Source: a virus
Strand: one strand, 5' to 3'
DNA length: 45,160 nucleotides
IMG/VR virus record: IMGVR_UViG_3300036822_000149
Span: 1-45,160 of that record
The notes under the pieces are model-generated. The model worked only from the letters and a program-made list of their open reading frames with translations. It was not told where the DNA came from and did not search any database. Numbering within the stretch: position 1 is the stretch's first letter; each line of letters opens with the position of its first letter. Of this stretch, positions 4,640 to 34,855 are shown in pieces. Both the position numbers and the translations under genes were made by a program.

Positions 4640-5214
4640 TTCGTTAGCCTCGCATAAGCCGCCGCCATCTTCTTGTCGTACGCATTCTGCGCGTAGCCAG
4701 GACCGTTGTAGCCCTTGGCGAAAGCGGCCCAGTTTTTCGCCCGCAGCGGAGCATCGAGCTTGTTCGCCTTGATGAAGCTCACGAACGCATCGAGATGCGC
4801 GCCCGCGCCAGCCCACATCGCGTCGACGAAGGCCTGCGAATCATCGAACCCGCAAGCCTTGTGATTTTGCCCCAAGATCTGGAATAGGCCCCAACTGCAG
4901 GCCTTGTTGGCGGCGTCGGCGTTCAGTTGCCGCGCATCCTCATAGCGGTTGTGCTGATTGACGCCGCTCGCGCCATAGAGCGCGCGATTCCAGCTTGGCG
5001 AAGAGAGCAAAACCCCTTTTCGATCCCTGGCGTGAGCGTGCCGGCCGCCCGTCTCTCGATTGAAGATATGCGCCTCGTAGAGGATGATCGGCCGGCCATC
5101 GGGCATGAAACCGGCGCCCGCGGATTCGACCTCCGCGACCGCCTTGATCGCCGCCACCTCGCAATCGAGCGCCTGCGCCGCGCGCTCGAAGTCGGCGTCG
5201 GTGAGCTCACTCAT
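4636..5214 (-). CDS. Endolysin, N-acetylmuramidase family
   Basis: This 192-residue protein matches the N-acetylmuramidase (PF11860-type) layout. It has KAVAEVESAGAGF near residues 24-36 with the likely catalytic Glu, then FMPDGRPIILYEAHIFNR, SWGLFQILGQNHKACGF, and a C-terminal AFAKGYNGPGYAQNAYDKKM. It cleaves the glycan backbone of peptidoglycan at lysis. No signal peptide or SAR helix is visible, so it should need a holin to reach the wall. The ATG at 5214 was chosen because it overlaps the holin stop by 8 bases and gives the family-typical N-terminus. Confidence 0.85.
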   Translation of the reverse strand: MSELTDADFERAAQALDCEVAAIKAVAEVESAGAGFMPDGRPIILYEAHIFNRETGGRHAHARDRKGVLLSSPSWNRALYGASGVNQHNRYEDARQLNADAANKACSWGLFQILGQNHKACGFDDSQAFVDAMWAGAGAHLDAFVSFIKANKLDAPLRAKNWAAFAKGYNGPGYAQNAYDKKMAAAYARLTK

Positions 5215-5527
5215 CCCGGCCCCCAACCTTGAAGTACATCGCCACAATGGCGCTGAAGGCGGCGATCAAAGCCCCGACCAAAATGTCGGCGCTGGGATTG
5301 GGGGTCGCGACGAACATGTAGGCGACGACGCTGAGAAACCCGATCACGATCAAAACGGCGAGAAAGTCGCGGATCGGCGCGCGAAAAGCGTCGCCCTGCC
5401 GCCAGGCCTGATACATCACCAGCGCGATATAACCGGCGACCAGGCACAGAACGGCGACCGTGGTCGGGCCGAACGCCAGCGGCTTGAGGGCGACATCCAC
5501 TAAATCCGCCCACGCCAGATCCTCCAT
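5207..5527 (-). CDS. Putative holin (three transmembrane helices)
   Basis: This 106-residue protein has three predicted membrane segments (about 21-40, 55-73 and 81-99) and a short charged C-terminus (KVGGRDE). It lies immediately upstream of the muramidase gene and overlaps it by 8 bases, which is the usual holin-endolysin arrangement. It would form membrane lesions that release the endolysin. The assignment rests on topology and context rather than a recognised family motif. Confidence 0.65.
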   Translation of the reverse strand: MEDLAWADLVDVALKPLAFGPTTVAVLCLVAGYIALVMYQAWRQGDAFRAPIRDFLAVLIVIGFLSVVAYMFVATPNPSADILVGALIAAFSAIVAMYFKVGGRDE

Positions 5528-5805
5528 GGATTGGCTTCGATGCTATTCCACCAGCGATCGAAGGCGTCCGGGTCGTCGTAGATCTCGCGCTTGATCAGAT
5601 CCTCGACCACGATCATCGGCAAGCGGCCGAGCAGCTTGTTGTCGCCGCTGTTGCGCATGATTTCGCGATCGCGCGCAACGCTGTCGAGAACAGGTTCGAC
5701 GTCCATGCTCGTTTTGATGTGGAGGTAATGACCGTCGAAGATCGTTTCACGTGAAACGCCGTCGCGGTGTTGATAGCGGCGGCGAGCTTCACCCACGGCG
5801 CTCAC
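5500..5805 (-). CDS. Conserved phage protein near capsid genes, function unknown
   Basis: This 101-residue soluble protein contains MDVEPVLDSVARDREIM in the middle and ends with NPWRIWRGRI. Small proteins with a similar VEPVLD...LLGRLPMIVVEDLI...W arrangement are common downstream of major capsid genes in podophages, but no role is known to me. The GTG at 5805 is the first start in frame and has no clear Shine-Dalgarno. The gene overlaps the holin by 28 bases, and 186 bases separate it from the capsid gene. Confidence 0.55.
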   Translation of the reverse strand: MSAVGEARRRYQHRDGVSRETIFDGHYLHIKTSMDVEPVLDSVARDREIMRNSGDNKLLGRLPMIVVEDLIKREIYDDPDAFDRWWNSIEANPWRIWRGRI

Positions 5806-8383: not shown

Positions 8384-8808
8384 GGCTTACGCCTAGTTTC
8401 CCACCCCTTAAGAGTCCGCTTGGTATGCTGCTCTGAGGTTTGGGCCGCCGCTGCTTTTTTTGACCATTCGCTTCGCTGTTCCGGCGTAAGCGCAGCGTGA
8501 ATCTTGTACATCCTCTCGCTGCGTCGCTCAGCTGGAATGTCGTAAAAATTATCGCGCGCGGTTCCCCAACGTAAGTGTTCCCCATTAACGCATAGAGAAC
8601 CAACGCACCCGTTCGGAGTATTGTGAAGCGCAAAATGATTCAAAGTCGGAGGAGGCCCATTGACCTCCTCACAAACAAGACGAGAAACGATTTCTCCCCT
8701 GCGTCCAACCCTTCCATACCCACCAGAACTCACCCATCCCATCCACAAATAACAACCCGTGTTGGGCTCAGGAATCCAGCGGTCGGAATAATCTTCAAGC
8801 ACACTCAT
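8380..8808 (-). CDS. HNH endonuclease (HNH_3 homing type)
   Basis: This 142-residue protein begins with WIPEPNTGCYLWMGWVSSGGYGR, typical of HNH_3 homing endonucleases. It continues with LNHFALHNTP, CVGSLCVNGEHLRWGTARDN, which supplies the H...N...H core and a Cys pair. A basic tail follows (TKRTLKGWETRRKP). Its DNA is visibly lower in GC than the flanks, which suggests recent acquisition. Yet it joins its neighbours by 4-base ATGA overlaps at both ends. It may be a mobile homing enzyme, or, as in some phages with HNH proteins near terminase, assist packaging; the latter is less likely at this distance from the terminase. Confidence 0.8.
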   Translation of the reverse strand: MSVLEDYSDRWIPEPNTGCYLWMGWVSSGGYGRVGRRGEIVSRLVCEEVNGPPPTLNHFALHNTPNGCVGSLCVNGEHLRWGTARDNFYDIPAERRSERMYKIHAALTPEQRSEWSKKAAAAQTSEQHTKRTLKGWETRRKP

Positions 8809-11615
8809 TTCGGCTTTTGCCTCGGCTTCATTTTGGCGATTTCAGATTGGTTCGCGAGAGTCGCCGCCGTTGTCCGTTCAGAACTATCGCGATCCAATGC
8901 TGACTGATGTAATTCATGCATCCGATCAAGAGAATTTTCGCCGCTTTCATGGTCCTGACCAGCCCCCTGAGAGAGCGCACCCGCAACAATCTTCTCACGA
9001 TTAACCGTATGTCCAGTCATTGTCGCGTGATGCTGCGCAGCCATCTGCGTCATAGCTTGTGCATGTTGCGAAGCAATCTTTGACATTGCTTGCTGATGCT
9101 GGCTGGCGATCTGCGCCGCCTTCAACTGGGCGTCGTTCTCGGCTTGCTGACGTTGCTGGTCGACCTGATCAGAATCGTTCTGCGCCTGCGCCATCTTGAC
9201 TTGTTGATCTTGGTCGGCGGAATCGCGATCCTGCTGATCGGACATCAACTGACTGCCCAACTTGGCGAGCTCGACATGATGATCGAGCCCAGCCTTCTGG
9301 CCGTCGATGTCCAGCTTCTGCAAATCGAGCGCCGTCTTGACGTTCAGTTGATGATGCTTGAACGCATTCTCCTGCTGCATCTTGGTGCGATCGAGATTCT
9401 GCTGACCGACCGCCTTCGAGGTGTCGGAGCGAACTTTCTCGAGCTGCGCCTGGGCGGCGAGCGCCATCGGATCCGGCGCTTTGGGCGCCGACTGCATCGC
9501 TTGCAGCTGCATCGGGTTGGGGGTCTTGAAATATCTCGAGACGTTTTTGATGTTGGCCAGCGCCAGCATGTCAGTCTGAGTGTTGAGCATCTCCATCACG
9601 CCGCAGATCGGGTTGTTGAGCCCCATCTGAGTCACTAGCAACTGCTGGTCCTGCTTGATCTGATTCAAGGCCAGCATCCGGACCATGTCCGAACCCTTGC
9701 CGAGGTTCGGATTGACCTCGACATCGAGCGTCGAATCGAAAGTGCTGGTGTCGTAGGGAACGAACTTGCCGCGGATTTTCAGCGTCCGCTGCTGATTGGG
9801 GTTTTCGCAGATCTCGTTGTAGAGGCCGGAAAAGAGGTCTTTAAAACCCGTCTCGCACAAAACCCGAGCGACGAGCTCGATCCTCTCCTGCGCCCCGTTG
9901 ATGACCGCCTCGACCCCAAGCATCGTGCTGGATTGCAGCGCTTTGGGATCGAGGCCTTTCGCAGCGTCGGAGAGGCCGGTGCGCCGCTGCAACTGATCGT
10001 TGAGCATCTCGACCACCGGCATCGCCTGCTGGCCGAGGAACGGCGTATTGGTGAACATCACCGAGGCGCTCGGATCGCCACGAGTCCGGATCACCGCGCC
10101 CAGATCATCGTTGAGCGCATCGTCGACGGTGACCATCAATTCATTGATGACCGTCTTCGGATTGATGCTCTCGGCGGCGCTGTCGAGGATCGCCCGCATC
10201 ATGTTGGTTTTGATGCGTTGGATATCTTCGGTGTAGTCGGCGAGCGAATCACCGATGATGGTGTGGCTGATCGGATCGCAGCCGAACACCGCGAACTTCA
10301 CCCGATTGGCGTAATCGTCCGAAACAACTTTGTTCTCGTCGCCGAAGGTGCAGATGTAGCGAAGCTCTGGGACGCCGTCGCCGTCCCGGTCGATCTTGAC
10401 ATACCACTCGCCATACTTAACCCCGTCGCCAAGCCGGGTGCCCATGAAGCGGCCCGGGTTGCGCAGCTGCGGCTCGGTGGTGAAAGCGGATTCCGAAGTC
10501 TGGATGTGCTCCATGCACATATCGCGGTCGTAGCCCATGGCGATCAGCTGATCGACCGGGACGATGCGCTGGTGACCGACGATGCGACTATTCTTGAAAT
10601 TCCGCGCATAGCGGTCGAGCCGCATCTCTTCCGGCGGCACGCCCTCGACCTTGATCAGGGGCTTGACCACCTCGAATTCGACCATTGCGTGATCGTAGAC
10701 CGGCGGCGGCGGCTGCAGGATCGACGGCGGCAGAGGCGGCGGCGCGGCGCCCGCCATCGGGCCAGGCGGCGGCCCGCCAGGCGGTGGGCCAGGGGGTTGG
10801 CCTCCGACTGGCGGACCTGGCGGACCCGGCAGTCCGCCTACTGCGAGCGGACCCGGCGGTGGGCCGCCCGAAGGGGCGCCTCCCGGCACGGGAGCGCCGG
10901 GAGGCGGGCCGCTCAGCGCCGAAGGGGAGGAAGGACTGGGCGGCATCGGCGGCTTCGGCTGAGGAACCGGGCTGCCAATCTCGAGAATTTTGGCGGTTGG
11001 ATTTTCGCTGAGCAGCAACTGCAACTGCTCGGCGGTGACGTTGAGGAACTTCTTGCGCTTAATCTCGCGGTAGTCCTCGCTCCACCACTTAACAAATCCG
11101 GCCTTTACAGTGAGCGCGTCCTTGATCGCGCCGTAGAGGATCAAAAAGCCCGAATTATCGTTCCAAAATGTGTAGTTGACATAATCGGTGCCTTGCTCGG
11201 CCATGTCCGATTCGGCTTCGCTCCGCGGCACCAGAAAGATGGGGGATTCGGATGCGCCAAACAGCCGGATGAGCGACGGGAGCATCATCATGATGGCGTC
11301 CCGCACGTCAGTGGAGACGTAGGTCGAGCGGTTCGGTTGGTTGGCGTTGTCTTTGTTGAGGATTTCGCCCAGCGTGGCGTTGGGATCCTCGCCGATGTAC
11401 GGGCTGCCGGGATTATAGGGGCCTATCCACGGCTCATATCCGTAATAGTAAAGCTGGGCCTGATTGCGATCGACTTGGAGGAAGGCGTTTTCGTAATCGA
11501 CCGCATCCCCCATCATCGCGCGGATGTACTGGTCGTAGCTCTCCGGATCACGAGGATCGTAAGCGGCATTCGAAGGCCCGACAGGGTCTTTGAAATGACC
11601 GAATATGCGCTCCAT
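8805..11615 (-). CDS. Portal protein with a collagen-like Pro/Gly insert
   Basis: This 936-residue protein is placed as the portal by size, by position between terminase and scaffold/capsid, and by sequence blocks such as RSTYVSTDVRDAIMMMLPSL, WNDNSGFLILYGAIKDALT and the wing/clip region GDSLADYTEDIQRIKTNMMRAILD, typical of podovirus portals. Residues about 219-307 are a Pro/Gly-rich stretch with repeated PPG-like triplets. The last 200 residues are Gln-rich and coiled (tail barrel). It is longer than the P22 portal (725 residues). It forms the dodecameric DNA channel at one capsid vertex. The ATG lies 5 bases after a strong hairpin and has no clear Shine-Dalgarno. Confidence 0.9.
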   Translation of the reverse strand: MERIFGHFKDPVGPSNAAYDPRDPESYDQYIRAMMGDAVDYENAFLQVDRNQAQLYYYGYEPWIGPYNPGSPYIGEDPNATLGEILNKDNANQPNRSTYVSTDVRDAIMMMLPSLIRLFGASESPIFLVPRSEAESDMAEQGTDYVNYTFWNDNSGFLILYGAIKDALTVKAGFVKWWSEDYREIKRKKFLNVTAEQLQLLLSENPTAKILEIGSPVPQPKPPMPPSPSSPSALSGPPPGAPVPGGAPSGGPPPGPLAVGGLPGPPGPPVGGQPPGPPPGGPPPGPMAGAAPPPLPPSILQPPPPVYDHAMVEFEVVKPLIKVEGVPPEEMRLDRYARNFKNSRIVGHQRIVPVDQLIAMGYDRDMCMEHIQTSESAFTTEPQLRNPGRFMGTRLGDGVKYGEWYVKIDRDGDGVPELRYICTFGDENKVVSDDYANRVKFAVFGCDPISHTIIGDSLADYTEDIQRIKTNMMRAILDSAAESINPKTVINELMVTVDDALNDDLGAVIRTRGDPSASVMFTNTPFLGQQAMPVVEMLNDQLQRRTGLSDAAKGLDPKALQSSTMLGVEAVINGAQERIELVARVLCETGFKDLFSGLYNEICENPNQQRTLKIRGKFVPYDTSTFDSTLDVEVNPNLGKGSDMVRMLALNQIKQDQQLLVTQMGLNNPICGVMEMLNTQTDMLALANIKNVSRYFKTPNPMQLQAMQSAPKAPDPMALAAQAQLEKVRSDTSKAVGQQNLDRTKMQQENAFKHHQLNVKTALDLQKLDIDGQKAGLDHHVELAKLGSQLMSDQQDRDSADQDQQVKMAQAQNDSDQVDQQRQQAENDAQLKAAQIASQHQQAMSKIASQHAQAMTQMAAQHHATMTGHTVNREKIVAGALSQGAGQDHESGENSLDRMHELHQSALDRDSSERTTAATLANQSEIAKMKPRQKPK

Positions 11616-11672: not shown

Positions 11673-11888
11673 CTAGGGCTGCGGGCGATTGGCCTGCGGC
11701 TTGTTGATGTGCTCGAAATATTCCTCGGCGCGCTCGCACATGCGCAGGATGCCGAGCCAGCGCTTGTCTTCCTTCGGAAACTGACCGGCGATCTTCTTGA
11801 GCTCGCGAATGAGCGATTCCGGCTCATCGAGCTCGACCAGCAAGTCTAGGCCAGGGGAGGATTCGGACTTAGCTCGAAGTGGCGGCAC
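11673..11888 (-). CDS. Small hypothetical protein upstream of portal
   Basis: The convincing part is the last 55 residues (LIRELKKIAGQFPKEDKRWLGILRMCERAEEYFEHI), which form amphipathic helices. The true start is unclear. A GTG at 11888 gives 71 residues and overlaps the preceding gene by 43 bases; a TTG at 11843 would avoid the overlap. Neither has a good Shine-Dalgarno. There is no known domain. It is probably part of the packaging/portal operon. Confidence 0.45.
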   Translation of the reverse strand: MPPLRAKSESSPGLDLLVELDEPESLIRELKKIAGQFPKEDKRWLGILRMCERAEEYFEHINKPQANRPQP

Positions 11889-12115
11889 GCCCAGGCGTTG
11901 TGCGGGATCGGCGGCGGATCCTTCAAGTGCTGCCGCGCCTTCCGGCAGCGGGCTGGCGTCAGTATCCCCGATCTCGTCCTCTCCCCCCGTTGATTTGCCC
12001 AATATTCGCACTCCCGGCAGGTGTTCGTCGTGTCGACGCGGGCAAAATGCGCCTGCCCCGGCTTGGTCATGATCCAAGAAACGTTCTCTTCGGTCAAATG
12101 TTCGGCGCCGACCAT
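11846..12115 (-). CDS. Small Cys-containing protein, possible metal-binding
   Basis: This 89-residue protein contains TTNTCRECEYW followed by TPARCRKA and WACRHF, a C-x2-C ... C ... C pattern that suggests one zinc or iron site. Similar 'VDTTNTCRECxxW' proteins occur in other phages, without a known role. The ATG at 12115 shares its T with the TAA of the previous gene (TAATG), so translation is probably coupled. Confidence 0.6.
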   Translation of the reverse strand: MVGAEHLTEENVSWIMTKPGQAHFARVDTTNTCRECEYWANQRGERTRSGILTPARCRKARQHLKDPPPIPHNAWACRHFELSPNPPLA

Positions 12116-12252
12116 TAGAACCTCGTTGGCTCGTAATATTTGACCGCGCCGCAGGTATCGCACTGCCAGCCAATCCAAACCACGCCGCCATGCATGCCGC
12201 TGACCACATGGCCACCGCACCAACGCAAACGACATCGAAGCCAACGGATCAT
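12115..12252 (-). CDS. Small zinc-ribbon-like protein
   Basis: This 45-residue protein ends WQCDTCGAVKYYEPTRF. One CxxC knuckle is clear, and a lone Cys with a nearby His occur earlier (LRWCGGHVV). The ATG at 12252 overlaps the TGA of the preceding gene (ATGA), and its own TAA overlaps the next ATG. Its function is unknown. Confidence 0.5.
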   Translation of the reverse strand: MIRWLRCRLRWCGGHVVSGMHGGVVWIGWQCDTCGAVKYYEPTRF

Positions 12253-12449
12253 CGCAACTCGTCGATCGCCGTCATCAGCTCGTCGCCGAGCTCGAGCCAA
12301 GCCGGATCGTTGAACGCATGCACCGCGAACGCCGCCTTGGCGTGGTCGAGATCAGGCGCATGGGCTTTGCACTCCGGCCACAGGATCTCGAGATCGAAGC
12401 GCCGCATGCGCGCCCGCCACCAGCGGAGGATCAGGCCGACTATCGCCAT
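12249..12449 (-). CDS. Small hypothetical protein
   Basis: This 66-residue protein begins MAIVGLILRWWRARMRRFDLEILW and ends LGDELMTAIDELR. The first 20 residues form an amphipathic, arginine-rich helix that might touch membrane or nucleic acid. The start is within the end of the previous gene (10-base overlap) and the stop overlaps the next ATG. No family was recognised. Confidence 0.5.
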   Translation of the reverse strand: MAIVGLILRWWRARMRRFDLEILWPECKAHAPDLDHAKAAFAVHAFNDPAWLELGDELMTAIDELR

Positions 12450-12652
12450 GCGTGACAGCGACCGCAATAGCGCTCGCGGATGTCGTTCGGATTGTAGCTG
12501 ACCGCGCCGCAAGCAGGGCATTCGAAGGAGGTCCGCGGCTCACTTGAACCCCGGCATTCCGGACAGAGATGGAGCAACCGCATCCAGTGAGGACCATCTG
12601 TGATGAGGTGATCGCGGATGAAGCCCTCACCATCGCAAGCTTCGCAGATCAC
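12440..12652 (-). CDS. Zinc-ribbon protein with four CxxC knuckles
   Basis: This 70-residue protein has CEAC, CPEC, CPAC and CGRC arranged as two zinc sites, reminiscent of DnaJ-type Cys-rich zinc fingers or rubredoxin-like ribbons. The GTG at 12652 was chosen because it overlaps the TGA of the preceding gene (GTGA). It may be a nucleic-acid or protein-binding accessory of the packaging operon. The role is inferred only. Confidence 0.6.
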   Translation of the reverse strand: MICEACDGEGFIRDHLITDGPHWMRLLHLCPECRGSSEPRTSFECPACGAVSYNPNDIRERYCGRCHAWR

Positions 12653-12921
12653 GCGGTGAGCCCCTTCACTGCCCACATCACCGCCTCTTCGATCTTGGTC
12701 TTGGCCAACGAGGCTTCGCGGCCCGTGGGCACAGCGCTGTCGATGGTCGAGATAAACCCAAGCCCCAAATCCTTGATGAGAACCATCGTGTCCTTTTCGG
12801 CGTCGCTCAGCACCCGGTACTGATGACGAACAGCATTGTTGACAGTGCGCTCGTCGCTTGTGCTGTCAACGTGGCGTTGGGTGTGAACGAAATCATTTTC
12901 GTCGCGTAGCTGTTCAGGCAT
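12649..12921 (-). CDS. Acb2/Tad1-hairpin-like protein, putative anti-CBASS cyclic-nucleotide sponge
   Basis: This 90-residue protein begins at the ATG (12921) overlapping the terminase TGA. After a polar N-terminus it reads VNNAVRHQYRVLSDAEKDTM (28-46), then a first helix to about 62, a short turn with SAVPTGREASLA, and a second helix KTKIEEAVMWAVKG (74-87). This length, the R-x-L-(S/T)-x-x-E element and the helix-turn-helix hairpin match phage proteins of the Acb2/Tad1-hairpin (DUF7681-like) type. Characterised members form hexamers that sequester cyclic oligonucleotides of CBASS and Thoeris immunity. The family call is from memory of sequence pattern; binding by this protein is inference. 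Confidence 0.7.
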   Translation of the reverse strand: MPEQLRDENDFVHTQRHVDSTSDERTVNNAVRHQYRVLSDAEKDTMVLIKDLGLGFISTIDSAVPTGREASLAKTKIEEAVMWAVKGLTA

Positions 12922-14225
12922 CACACCAATCCTCGCAATCGGCGCCGCAAGCGTCCTTGCGCACCATACTTGCCGAACGAGCCGGAAACCAGCGGAATGC
13001 CGACGCAGCCAGTCCGAAACGCGTCGGCGGCGTCCTCGGCTTCGTCGGGAATGGCGACCCCCGATTTGCCACGCCGGTAGCTTCGCAGGCGCGCCAAGCC
13101 GCGCCGGGTCGCCTCCTCGTCGAACCAACTGACCCCGAGCATGCCGCGGGTGGCGGTGATGCCGTCCTCGGTGTTGTGCGCGGGCACGGTGATGATCGGC
13201 TCGGCCAGCAGGCCGCCAAGCTCATGCCGCCGAGACATACCCGTGCTGAGCTCGCGCACCTCGACGTCATGCGGCAGGAGATGGGCGCGGTAGGAAAAGC
13301 CGCCGGCCTTGGCCTTCAGTAAGAGCAGGTCGGTGTAATAGCTCAGCTTCTTGCCGCGGCCCTCGATGTAATCGATCCAATGCACCTCGCGGCCAGTAAG
13401 CTGGAATAGCCAGACCGCCTGAATGTGGCGGATGCCCAAATCCCAAGACGTGATGACGTCGGTGTTAAGATCGGGGGAAACCCTGGTGACCCGATTGTTG
13501 AGCTGCAGCGCGTTGAGCGCCTCGGTGTAGAACGCGCCCTCAACAGGGGCGTCGAACGAATTAAGCATCTCGCGGGCGAACTCGTCCGGGGACATGTCCT
13601 CGCGCATCGCCTGGATCTCGGCGAGGCTAAGCGCGTCCTCGCCGGTGTCGGTGACTTTGATGTCGAACACGTCCCACAAGGGATCGTCGTCGGCGCGCAG
13701 CTTCAGCTTATGAAAATGGTCGTCGCCGGCCGAAGTGCCTGAAACGATAGCAAAACCTCGATAATCAGCAAGAGCAGGCCGAACAACCGAGGTGAAGGCG
13801 GCAGGATTGAGTAAAGGATACTCATCCAGAACAGCGCCATCAAGATAGATGCCGCGCATGCGCTCGTAAGCAAGGGCCCCTCCATAGAGGCGGATAGTGC
13901 CGCCGCCGGGGAAGACTAAGGTGAGTTCGCCTTCGAGCGCGCGGACCCCGGGGACGTTGGCGGTGTATTGCTTGATGTATTGCCAGCATAAATCCTTCGC
14001 CTGATCGAAGCTGGGGCCGATGTAGGCGTAGCGCGGAGGAGGCTCAGTGCGCGGATTGTTCAGACAGCGGGCGATGAGCTCGTTGACCAGCGCCACCGTC
14101 TTGCCAGCGCGGCGATGACAGACAGCGAATTTCCAGCGCTTTTGAGAGGCATGCAAAGGAGCGAAATGACGGCGCGGCTTGTAGGGGAGGACAACGACGT
14201 CATCCAGTGCCGTCGTCTCGGTCAT
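12921..14225 (-). CDS. Terminase large subunit
   Basis: This 434-residue packaging motor has Walker A CHRRAGKT at 36-43, Walker B AVLDEYP with the Asp-Glu pair at 134-135, and coupling motif VSGTS at 161-165. The C-terminal RNase-H-like nuclease has candidate acids D262 (SWDLG), D320 (LPHDVE) and D401 (AADAFR). It overlaps the small terminase by 26 bases and ends on the next ATG. The enzyme translocates DNA through the portal and cuts it. Circularly permuted ends of the assembly would fit headful packaging. Confidence 0.95.
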   Translation of the reverse strand: MTETTALDDVVVLPYKPRRHFAPLHASQKRWKFAVCHRRAGKTVALVNELIARCLNNPRTEPPPRYAYIGPSFDQAKDLCWQYIKQYTANVPGVRALEGELTLVFPGGGTIRLYGGALAYERMRGIYLDGAVLDEYPLLNPAAFTSVVRPALADYRGFAIVSGTSAGDDHFHKLKLRADDDPLWDVFDIKVTDTGEDALSLAEIQAMREDMSPDEFAREMLNSFDAPVEGAFYTEALNALQLNNRVTRVSPDLNTDVITSWDLGIRHIQAVWLFQLTGREVHWIDYIEGRGKKLSYYTDLLLLKAKAGGFSYRAHLLPHDVEVRELSTGMSRRHELGGLLAEPIITVPAHNTEDGITATRGMLGVSWFDEEATRRGLARLRSYRRGKSGVAIPDEAEDAADAFRTGCVGIPLVSGSFGKYGAQGRLRRRLRGLV

Positions 14226-14712
14226 CAGCGTCCGTCTTCCATCTGAAAGTAATGCTGCGCTGTTGCGGGGAGACGGTCAAGGAGGCGGCGCTTTGCGTGG
14301 TCGCAGGCGGCGCCGGGCTCAGCGGATGACCTTGGGCGAGCCGGGACTGAAGAACTTTGGTGGAAGCCCATTCCTTGGCGCGCTGGTCGGAATTGGGGTC
14401 GAACAGGGTGTCGATCGGCACCGCAACGGCGCGGATCAGGGCGGTCTCGAAAGCCTCTTGATGAATGCGCTGGAGGCGCGGGGAGGCTTTGACGAGGCGC
14501 GTCAGGCGATGCAGAGGGCTTTTGAGCAGGGCCGCGGCTTTCTGCAGTTCACCGTGAGCGAGATGGATTGCGGTTGCCGCTTCGTCGAAGTCGATCGGTA
14601 GGGTTGGAGGCCGCTCATCCCAGGGATAGTACGGGAGGGGTACGAATTCATCGTCGTTGCCTGTAGTATTGCCTGGGTCAACCAAGGTTAAATGTGGATG
14701 GTCGTCTTTCAT
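14200..14712 (-). CDS. Putative terminase small subunit
   Basis: This 170-residue protein sits directly upstream of the large terminase and is read in the same direction. Its middle (about 40-115) is helical (AIHLAHGELQKAAALLKSPLHRLTRLVKASPRLQRIHQEAFE). That segment has a helix-turn-helix-like look (AALLKSPLHRLTRLVKAS), as in small terminases that recognise pac sites. The N-terminus is Asp/Pro-rich. The ATG at 14712 lies only 7 bases after a TATAAT box, so its mRNA may be nearly leaderless. The role is assigned from position and helical pattern. Confidence 0.7.
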   Translation of the reverse strand: MKDDHPHLTLVDPGNTTGNDDEFVPLPYYPWDERPPTLPIDFDEAATAIHLAHGELQKAAALLKSPLHRLTRLVKASPRLQRIHQEAFETALIRAVAVPIDTLFDPNSDQRAKEWASTKVLQSRLAQGHPLSPAPPATTQSAASLTVSPQQRSITFRWKTDADDRDDGTG

Positions 14713-14719
14713 TTGTAGT

Positions 14720-14747
14720 ATTATACAGGTCGTGGATCGATTGGCAA
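14720..14747 (-). promoter_or_regulatory. Late promoter for the packaging/structural operon
   Basis: On the minus strand TTGCCA (14747-14742), a 16-base spacer and TATAAT (14725-14720) form a strong sigma-70-like promoter. Transcription would start within a few bases of the small terminase ATG at 14712, leaving almost no 5' leader. It is the best promoter seen for the minus-strand block. Confidence 0.75.
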
Positions 14748-14813
14748 CCTCCTCGGCCCCGGTTCCGTCATAGGCCGCCCATGGGGGGCTCTCATCCGCT
14801 CGCAATAGGATTA

Positions 14814-14831
14814 CAACCGATCGATCGGTTG
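14814..14831. promoter_or_regulatory. Perfect 18-bp palindrome, candidate operator
   Basis: CAACCGATCGATCGGTTG is its own reverse complement over all 18 bases. It lies about 67 bases upstream of the -35 box of the minus-strand late promoter and well upstream of the early promoter, so a dimeric regulator could bind it. It includes two GATC sites. Confidence 0.55.
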
Positions 14832-14844
14832 CGCACGTTGCGTT

Positions 14845-14867
14845 ATGTCTAGCGCTACGCTGGACAT
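14845..14867. repeat. Inverted repeat, 10-base arms
   Basis: ATGTCTAGCG at 14845-14854 and CGCTGGACAT at 14858-14867 are complementary except for one T-G pair, with a 3-base centre. It may be an operator half-site pair or form an RNA hairpin. Confidence 0.5.
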
Positions 14868-14891
14868 GATGGAACAAATAAGGATTGCGAC

Positions 14892-32727: not shown

Positions 32728-34151
32728 TGAGCACGCTCGATCCGGTTCAGCTTGCGGCTCTGGACTTCGCCCGCGACAAGCCAGGCGTCGGCTGGTTTTT
32801 AGAGCAAGGGCTAGGAAAAACCTTATGCGCGCTGGCCGAGTTCTCTTGGTATCAGCAGCTGGAAGAAGCATCGAGAATGATCGTTGTTTGCCCCAACACG
32901 TTTAAACAGGGTTGGGTGGATGAGATCGAAAAACACGGATTCCATTTCAACATCCATGTTTTTCGTTCATCGAAGAAAAAAGAAGCGCAAATCTTTTTTG
33001 GCCAGAGAGTGACGCCCTTTAACAAACCTTGGGTTCTGATCATCAATTATGAAGCGCTGCGAATGCCCGCGGTGCTCAAAGTTGTGGCGACCTGGGCTGG
33101 CATGGGTAAGACCTACCTGGCGATCGACGAGTCGATCCAGATCAAAAGCCACAAGGCCGCGCAGACGCGCGCTGTCCACAAGCTCGCGCCGCTATGCGCC
33201 TTCGTCCGCCTCCTGACCGGCCGCCCGCAGACACAAGGCCCGCATGATCTCTGGGGCCAATTGCGCGCCATTGGGCTTTACACCGACCGTAATTTCTATG
33301 CTTTCCGCGGCGCATTTTGCGTCATGGGCGGCTGGCAGGACAAGGAGGTGATTCGGGCCAAGAACACCGAGATCCTGGCCGAAGCGATGGCCCCCTTCGT
33401 TTTCCAGGCGAAGAAATCAGCCTGGTTGCCGGAATTGCCGCGCAAGGATTACACCATCCGCGATTATGCGATGTCGACCGAGCAGCTGGCTCAGTACAAT
33501 CAGATGGAGCAGCAGTTTTTGCTCTATCTCGAGCATAACGTCGTCACTGTCGACGTGGCGATCGCCAAATACGCCAAGCTGGCGCAGATCCAGACGGGCT
33601 TCATTTACGACGAGCAGGGCTACATCCATGAACTCGTCAAACCAGCGGAGAACCCGCGGCTGAATCTCCTGCGTCAACTGCTGGAGGAGGAAGTCGCCGG
33701 CAAGTGCTGTGTCGTCTACCGGCATCGAGCGGTGCTCGACGTGCTGGCCAAGGCGCTGAACGCCTATTGCGGCGCCTGGATCAAGGGCGGGATGAAGCCC
33801 GAGGAAATCGAACAACAGAAGGCCCGCTTTAATAAGGATCCGTTTTGCCGGGTTATTTTACTCCAAGCCGATGCCGCAAAATATGGCCATACCCTTTTGG
33901 GCGGCCCCGGTCCGGACGACTTGTGCCGAACCATGATTTTTTTCGAGAACAGCTATTCGGCCGATACGCGCGACCAGATAGAGGATAGGATCCATCGACG
34001 CGGCCAAACGGGGGAATCAGTGCTGTACATCGATCTTTCCGGCTCCGATCTCGATCGGCGCATTGTCAAAGCGTTGCAGAGGAAAGACGCACTTTACAGA
34101 TCCGTGTTCAAAAACCTCAAAGCCGCAGCACCCATAGGAGAAACAGCATGA
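32727..34151 (+). CDS. SNF2/DEAD-type helicase
   Basis: This 474-residue ATPase has Walker A EQGLGKT (26-32), DEAH-position motif AIDES (132-136), motif III LLTGRP, and C-terminal motif VI QIEDRIHRRGQT. The two RecA-like lobes are intact. Related phage proteins accompany replication and recombination genes (as T4 UvsW-like or SNF2 helicases) and remodel forks or R-loops. The ATG overlaps the previous TGA (TGATG). Confidence 0.85.
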   Translation: MSTLDPVQLAALDFARDKPGVGWFLEQGLGKTLCALAEFSWYQQLEEASRMIVVCPNTFKQGWVDEIEKHGFHFNIHVFRSSKKKEAQIFFGQRVTPFNKPWVLIINYEALRMPAVLKVVATWAGMGKTYLAIDESIQIKSHKAAQTRAVHKLAPLCAFVRLLTGRPQTQGPHDLWGQLRAIGLYTDRNFYAFRGAFCVMGGWQDKEVIRAKNTEILAEAMAPFVFQAKKSAWLPELPRKDYTIRDYAMSTEQLAQYNQMEQQFLLYLEHNVVTVDVAIAKYAKLAQIQTGFIYDEQGYIHELVKPAENPRLNLLRQLLEEEVAGKCCVVYRHRAVLDVLAKALNAYCGAWIKGGMKPEEIEQQKARFNKDPFCRVILLQADAAKYGHTLLGGPGPDDLCRTMIFFENSYSADTRDQIEDRIHRRGQTGESVLYIDLSGSDLDRRIVKALQRKDALYRSVFKNLKAAAPIGETA

Positions 34152-34855
34152 AATTCCTTCTCGCCGCCGCCCTTCTCGCCGCCGCCACGCCCGCCAATGC
34201 GGCGCTGCAGGTCGCATTCAGCGACGGCGCCAGCAAGTTCTTCTGCGCCGATCAGACCTCTTGCGATTTGGATGGGCAGGTGAAAAACGTGCTCTTGCTC
34301 AACACCATGGTTGGCGACATCCGCATCGAGGGCACCTTCGTCGCCTCGTCGACCAGTCCCGACGAACTGTCGGTCAGCAACCTCACCATCACCAATCTCG
34401 GAACCAGCACTCAGACGCTGTTGATGGCGGCGGGCGACATCGGCTTTGTCGGGCCGATCGCCGCGATCCGCTCGTCGGGCAGCGGCACCTTCAATAATGA
34501 TGTCGGCGGCTCCGGCAACGTGGTGTTCTTCGCCTCGCCGTCGAACACCCAGCCAGCGGCGTTCTCGACCGATCTGCCAGGTCAGCAGCTGTTCACCACC
34601 GGGCTCTTGGTGACGAAAGCGCCGAGCAGTTTTGCGGGCGACAAAACGACGCCGTTCAGCGCCAGCGGGCCGTTTTCGATGGCTGAAGGAGCGGCGATCA
34701 CGCTGCGCGCCGGAGCTTCGATCACCGGATTTAACGAAAGTATGGCGACTGCGGCTATCCCTGAGCCATCGACCTGGGCAATGATGATCATCGGCGCTGG
34801 CCTTCTGGCTAGTGTAGGGTGGAAGAAGCGCCGACAAGCCCGTCTGGCGTTTTAA
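34148..34855 (+). CDS. PEP-CTERM surface protein
   Basis: This 235-residue protein has a cleavable signal peptide (1-18, ending PANA) and a full PEP-CTERM tail: PEP at 205-207, WAMM, hydrophobic helix to about 225, and KKRRQAR (226-232). Bacterial exosortases recognise this signal and anchor or release the protein at the cell surface. The mature part is Ser/Thr/Gly-rich and beta-like, with two Cys (about 36 and 43). GGAG lies seven bases before the ATG, which overlaps the helicase stop. PEP-CTERM proteins are bacterial; a phage-encoded one suggests surface modification of the host. The role is inferred. Confidence 0.85.
   Translation: MKFLLAAALLAAATPANAALQVAFSDGASKFFCADQTSCDLDGQVKNVLLLNTMVGDIRIEGTFVASSTSPDELSVSNLTITNLGTSTQTLLMAAGDIGFVGPIAAIRSSGSGTFNNDVGGSGNVVFFASPSNTQPAAFSTDLPGQQLFTTGLLVTKAPSSFAGDKTTPFSASGPFSMAEGAAITLRAGASITGFNESMATAAIPEPSTWAMMIIGAGLLASVGWKKRRQARLAF

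Follow-up and report, generated by a model that had tools for sequence, protein, structure and literature searches.

Three groups of phage proteins that capture nucleotide signals are relevant to the gene described here. For the Acb2 protein Vs.4 of phage T4 (PDB 7UQ2), Jenson et al. 2023 (PMC10097602) describe stacking of cGAMP by Y8 and F82, polar contacts from Y8, H11, K23 and R79, mutants of the interface at L29, A66, A73 and A77, a helix cap at T12, and a more than 25-fold reduction in cGAMP binding on loss of F82. Solved Acb2 proteins also include that of Pseudomonas phage PaMx33/PaP2 (ORF24 / p26; PDB 8H2J) and Acb2 homolog 43 (PDB 9PTQ). Tad1 has a C-terminal helical hairpin, preceded by an N-terminal four-stranded sheet according to a review (PMC12043709), and Tad2 (PF11195) is also a signal sponge. 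Further background comes from PMC12657218, PMC12657230, PMC11722364, PMC10419184 and PMC13348362.

Here we analyse a putative sponge gene in a 45,160-nucleotide stretch of viral DNA (IMG/VR record IMGVR_UViG_3300036822_000149; hereafter the window, meaning the whole stretch). The analysis brings out a variable gene position behind the terminase, which is of greater interest, and a conserved N-terminal protein segment; the gene itself joins a known family. Among titles and abstracts no paper dealt with the protein's subfamily or with a counter-defence slot after the terminase, none was found on Acb2 homolog 43, and a search for DUF7681 returned none either; this is not proof of novelty, since most subscription papers, the main Acb2 papers included, lay outside the search.

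Results and discussion

Gene and operon context

The original prediction placed a 90-residue anti-CBASS or anti-Thoeris sponge at positions 12649-12921, directly after the large terminase gene in the packaging operon. The open reading frame (ORF) is confirmed at these coordinates with a product of that length, and lies on the minus strand, which had been left unspecified, with its ATG at 12921, its stop at 12649-12651 and no internal stop (Table 1). The RVLSDAEKDTM element named in that prediction is present at residues 36-46. The position after the terminase also holds, the A of the terminase TGA being the A of the sponge ATG (TGATG). The next ORF can start at a GTG that overlaps the sponge stop, and portal, scaffold and major head genes (PHROG) follow on the same strand, so that the gene is part of a packaging and head operon with closely overlapping genes. 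The conserved ORF upstream of the terminase has a homologue at that position in most related contigs and no match in PHROG. Late expression of the sponge is inferred from gene order only, since three promoter-like sites were found in the region against 1.1 expected by chance.

Table 1. Features of the sponge locus in the window and of comparable loci in related contigs
Feature	Coordinates	Strand	Basis or remark
acb2-like sponge gene (P0001), 90 aa	12649..12921	-	PF24729 61.9 bits; family profile retrieves solved Acb2/Vs.4/Tad1 chains
Coding part for helical hairpin, aa 40-89	12655..12804	-	AlphaFold helices 40-63, 68-89
Coding part for conserved N-terminal segment, aa 20-35	12817..12864	-	Consensus SxSDxRTxNNxxRHxY
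Terminase large subunit	12921..14225	-	PHROG terminase E 3.3e-22; directly upstream of sponge, 1-base overlap
Zinc-ribbon-like ORF	12440..12652	-	Possible GTG start overlaps sponge stop (GTGA); DnaJ_CXXCXGXG E 2e-5, below its cut-off
Small conserved ORF	11846..12244	-	Directly after terminase in relatives without cargo
Portal protein	8805..11615	-	PHROG portal E 2.4e-114
Conserved ORF upstream of terminase	14200..14877	-	Small terminase by position only; start uncertain
Promoter-like site ahead of packaging genes	14720..14747	-	11/12 matches; weak evidence
Tandem sponge cassette after terminase, Tad2-like overlapping second-subfamily Acb2-hairpin gene	L182:1641-2089, L183:3052-3500, L184:5278-5726, L185:3272-3720		
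Tad2-like gene upstream of window-subfamily sponge	L002:4786-5001, L010:2336-2551, L011:4787-5002		

Family assignment and predicted fold

Membership of the Acb2/Tad1 family, suspected originally from a short motif and a predicted hairpin, is correct by profile search: residues 34-88 match Pfam PF24729 (Acb2/Tad1 hairpin; profile positions 2-57 of 58) with E 6.4e-17 and 61.9 bits against a curated cut-off of 27 bits. With this match, and with related coding sequences at 219 places in viral contigs, the ORF is not a chance one. Used as a single sequence against PDB sequences, the protein retrieved one Acb2 homologue with phmmer (homolog 43, E 0.0064). A profile built from 31 relatives (A1) and run against the same sequences gave nine matches spanning E 9.7e-5 to 0.095, beginning with homolog 43 (9.7e-5), p26/Acb2 (0.0016, 0.0018) and Vs.4 (0.0029), followed by five Tad1 sequences, the first at 0.079; unrelated chains appeared from 0.34 on, with a further Tad1 sequence at 0.62. 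One-target hhalign searches gave E 1.1e-7 for PaMx33 ORF24 and 2.7e-7 for the Vs.4 copy of phage RB32. PADLOC and NCBIfam held no family matching the protein, and the only PHROGs families it matched are of unknown function.

The two-helix hairpin that had been proposed is predicted confidently by AlphaFold, run on single chains with alignments of 31 and 102 sequences, as two long antiparallel helices with block mean pLDDT of 96-99. The N-terminus is of low confidence in both runs, that with the deeper alignment included, and where Acb2 has a short helix ahead of the hairpin, one model shows a low-confidence helix at residues 22-29 and the other three helical residues. Neither model contains a beta strand, the 39 residues that precede the hairpin being of low confidence. 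The protein shares the helix pattern of the Tad1 hairpin and differs from Tad1 in that its models lack the N-terminal antiparallel beta-sheet domain, on which ground identity with Tad1 is rejected.

In structural comparisons against the PDB, Acb2 and Vs.4 chains took Foldseek ranks 1-6 with one model (E 0.52-1.6) and ranks 1-5 with the second, none of the E values being significant, and VIA-align Z scores for Vs.4 (7.4), Acb2 (6.8) and Tad1 (5.4) were intermixed with those of unrelated helical chains. With the PDB as the only target, neither method would tell Acb2 apart from other helical hairpins. Against BFVD, 19 of the 25 first-listed Foldseek rows were named Acb2/Tad1 hairpin (E 0.006-0.8), a naming that we take to be Pfam-based. 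The predicted fold agrees with the Acb2 family and is not proof of it; the assignment rests on the sequence profile.

Pocket and interface residues

Conservation was assessed in an alignment of 149 rows, comprising the window protein and 148 distinct relatives (from 80 of the 219 viral-contig places, 80 of 93 genome places and 4 phage records), with residues mapped to Vs.4 through hhalign; the RB32 copy used carries the same residues at the same numbers. The cGAMP-stacking tyrosine of Vs.4, Y8, corresponds to Y35 (143 of the 149 rows) and the pocket lysine K23 to K50 (145/149), while R79 is replaced by K86 (133 Lys and 9 Arg). The alanines of the hexamer interface are near-invariant, A73 (Vs.4 A66) being kept in 148 rows, A80 (A73) in 145 and A84 (A77) in 146, and T75 (T68) occurs in 134. 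At the position of the helix cap T12 the window protein has S39, with Ser in 92, Thr in 32 and Asn in 9 rows. Two ligand contacts of Vs.4 are not kept: the aromatic F82 has become T89 (Thr in 143/149) and H11 has become L38 (Leu in 144/149). The loss of F82 is not decisive against Acb2, because PaMx33 Acb2 also lacks an aromatic residue there.

PaMx33/PaP2 Acb2 resembles the window protein in its helical hairpin, the Y-R-x-L-S start of the helix, the pocket Tyr and Lys and a hairpin arginine, and differs from it in a longer inter-helix loop; identity is about 35 percent over 55 columns. The shared arginine, R68 in the window protein (147/149 rows), equals PaMx33 R67, which we take to be part of a trinucleotide site. 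Homolog 43 is the closest solved sequence, its match spanning residues 44-87 of the window protein only.

A subfamily with a conserved N-terminal segment

Besides the 219 coding places in viral contigs, relatives were found at 93 places in one-per-species genomes, mostly of Alphaproteobacteria as read from record titles without a count; those in the 4 phage records are annotated as hypothetical proteins. Judged by its sequence, the window protein is a member of a large Acb2-hairpin subfamily, found mainly in Alphaproteobacteria and marked by a conserved segment at residues 20-35, in which R25 (141/149), N28 (141), N29 (136), R32 (142), H33 (137) and Y35 are conserved and R25 occurs together with N29 in 133 of the 149 rows. 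Residues 20-33 have no counterpart in the Vs.4 and PaMx33 proteins aligned with it, and the PF24729 match begins at residue 34. This subfamily-specific segment may form a lid or an extra contact and may tune ligand choice, which poses a direct question about the evolution of sponge specificity. An uncharacterised, widespread Acb2-hairpin subfamily is hereby placed in a packaging operon.

As a separate observation, at two loci (L024:4992-5681 and L046, about 5000-5720) the reading frame of an Acb2-like protein continues into a long C-terminal extension that contains holin-like hydrophobic stretches; in the L024 fusion the hairpin is the only Pfam match.

Genomic neighbourhoods of relatives

Neighbouring genes of the relatives are varied, the commonest cluster occurring in 13 of about 164 loci. 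When 100 neighbours upstream and 93 downstream (from 129 and 125 candidates) were scanned with PHROG, the named families matched most often were those of portal, terminase, head protease and minor head proteins, with no single partner; in phage record MW202738 the sponge lies near recT and exonuclease genes. Since the neighbours vary without a recurrent one, extend to recombination genes and are often morphogenesis genes, the sponge is a movable accessory gene leaning to morphogenesis modules. In a second terminase lineage (L006, L009, L019), with no BLAST similarity detectable to the terminase of the window, it again directly follows the terminase, at -1, 0 and -1 nt, and in L002 a Tad2-like gene lies between the two. 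In 3 of 163 loci (Table 1) a sponge of the window's subfamily is immediately preceded by a Tad2-like gene (2 to -2 nt); two of these loci, L010 and L011, encode identical sponge proteins.

A variable position behind the terminase

A search with the terminase returned 30 contigs, of which four (L193-L196, 36-37 percent identity) were dropped, leaving 26 at 68-89 percent; the portal gene was visible in the fetched stretch of 25 of these. What follows the terminase differs among them. In L168, whose terminase and portal are 89 and 95 percent identical to those of the window, the slot is taken by a PF24729 protein of 72 aa from a different subfamily (E 1.1e-9), whose gene overlaps the terminase stop by a few bases. 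Four contigs (L182-L185), nearly identical at the slot so that they may count as one or two events, carry a Tad2-like gene (PF11195, E 2.4e-25 for the L182 sequence) followed by a gene of this second PF24729 subfamily. Tad2 has a fold unrelated to that of the window protein, and none occurs in the window's own slot. Genes of anti-restriction type occupy the slot in L173 (Mom protein, PF25680, E 1.3e-17; L173:5275-6024) and L174 (C-5 DNA methylase, PF00145, E 4.5e-17; L174:5271-6296). In L180 (L180:1708-2750) the slot holds a gene for a membrane protein, whose Vut_1 match stays below threshold, and a 197-aa ORF that matched nothing; judged by eye, the two might be a base-modification pair. In L191 (L191:632-895) an 88-aa ORF containing GFVLLVFPYGEKEGRCNYISNG is followed by the zinc-ribbon-like gene conserved from the window; it has no Pfam match, has relatives at L080 and L132, and is a candidate counter-defence gene. 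In several others (for example L170, L171, L175, L176, L179 and L188) the terminase is followed directly by the small conserved ORF that the window has farther along, at 11846..12244, as if the slot were empty. A recognised counter-defence family thus stands directly in the slot in 7 of the 26 contigs, or 8 of 27 with the window.

With the PF24729 profile, 11 of the 26 whole records gave a match. It falls in the slot region in five of them (L168, L182-L185) and outside it in the other six; of the latter, G009 and G003 belong to the window's subfamily and G005, G008, G011 and G025 to the second. Absences mean little, because many records are fragments. A tblastn search with the window protein had suggested that the related phages lack a sponge; the profile matches overturned this and show tblastn to be too weak.

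The position directly after the terminase thus varies and looks like a cargo slot for counter-defence genes. We tentatively hypothesise, at somewhat short of an even chance, that an exchangeable counter-defence slot lies behind the terminase stop, overlapping and probably translationally coupled to the terminase, in which sponges (two Acb2-hairpin subfamilies and Tad2) and anti-restriction genes (Mom, DNA methylase) swap, and that the alphaproteobacterial Acb2 subfamily gained an N-terminal lid (residues 20-35) altering the signal it captures. RNA from the terminase genes of staphylococcal phages triggers CBASS. If the slot exists as we propose, coupling to the terminase would mean that the sponge is made just when the packaging transcript appears, and the slot could be read in other phages as a route to new anti-defence genes such as the 88-aa ORF of L191.

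Co-occurrence with host cyclases

SMODS cyclases (PF18144) scored over the cut-off in 14 of the 49 genomes that carry a sponge, compared with 7 of 289 for the class and 8/81, 8/80 and 7/80 for relatives. AbiEii, an unrelated abortive-infection family, was found in 25/49 sponge-bearing genomes against 25/81 and 21/80 relatives. With known carriers left out, the odds ratios were 4.1 and 2.6; at E 1e-9 the value for SMODS was 2.6. Weak matches vary by search, G043 having a weak cyclase match in one and none in another. Because AbiEii is enriched too, we do not count the SMODS enrichment as evidence; it may reflect only the mobile-element load of the genomes behind L088-L163.

Proposed function and alternatives

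The best explanation of the window protein is a phage sponge for nucleotide signals within the Acb2 branch of PF24729, and we place fairly high confidence in it. Such a function fits the neighbourhood, since Tad2-like, Mom and DNA methylase genes share the post-terminase position in relatives. Of the two systems named by the original prediction, CBASS is the likelier target, because the models have no N-terminal beta domain of the Tad1 kind. In the mechanism we posit, protomers of 90 residues would fold as a helical hairpin and assemble into a hexamer through the alanine-faced second helix; Tyr35, Lys50 and Lys86, the equivalents of Vs.4 Y8, K23 and R79, would hold cyclic oligonucleotides between protomers; and CBASS-type effectors would be kept inactive, so that the infected cell might survive until phage release.

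The protein could also be a sponge whose main ligand is not a CBASS dinucleotide; it would then capture cyclic trinucleotides, the Thoeris signal gcADPR or something else, and its N-terminal segment would take the place of the Phe82 and His11 contacts of Vs.4. Loss of both of those residues, near-invariance of R68 and a second helix with the SRE...A.T..EEA.MW pattern seen in Tad1 speak for such a ligand; retention of the dinucleotide-pocket Tyr and Lys and the strand-free models without a Tad1-type domain speak against it, and we regard it as possible but rather doubtful. That the gene sits in morphogenesis modules, with portal, terminase and head-protease families its commonest named neighbours, raises the question of whether its product is no sponge at all and instead a small head or packaging accessory protein sharing the hairpin by coincidence, helical hairpins being common folds. 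The absence of a recurrent partner, the close relatives of the window phage that have no sponge or another gene at the position, the different setting in MW202738 and the conserved pocket make this unlikely. Least probable is that the protein was once a sponge, no longer binds a ligand and is kept by chance: nothing speaks directly for this, pocket and interface residues are near-invariant over the 149 rows, and the window copy has no internal stop.

Elsewhere in the window, a 235-aa ORF on the plus strand (34148-34855) carries a PEP-CTERM sorting motif at its C-terminus (PF07589, with E 9e-8 and a score over the cut-off), which is unusual in a phage.
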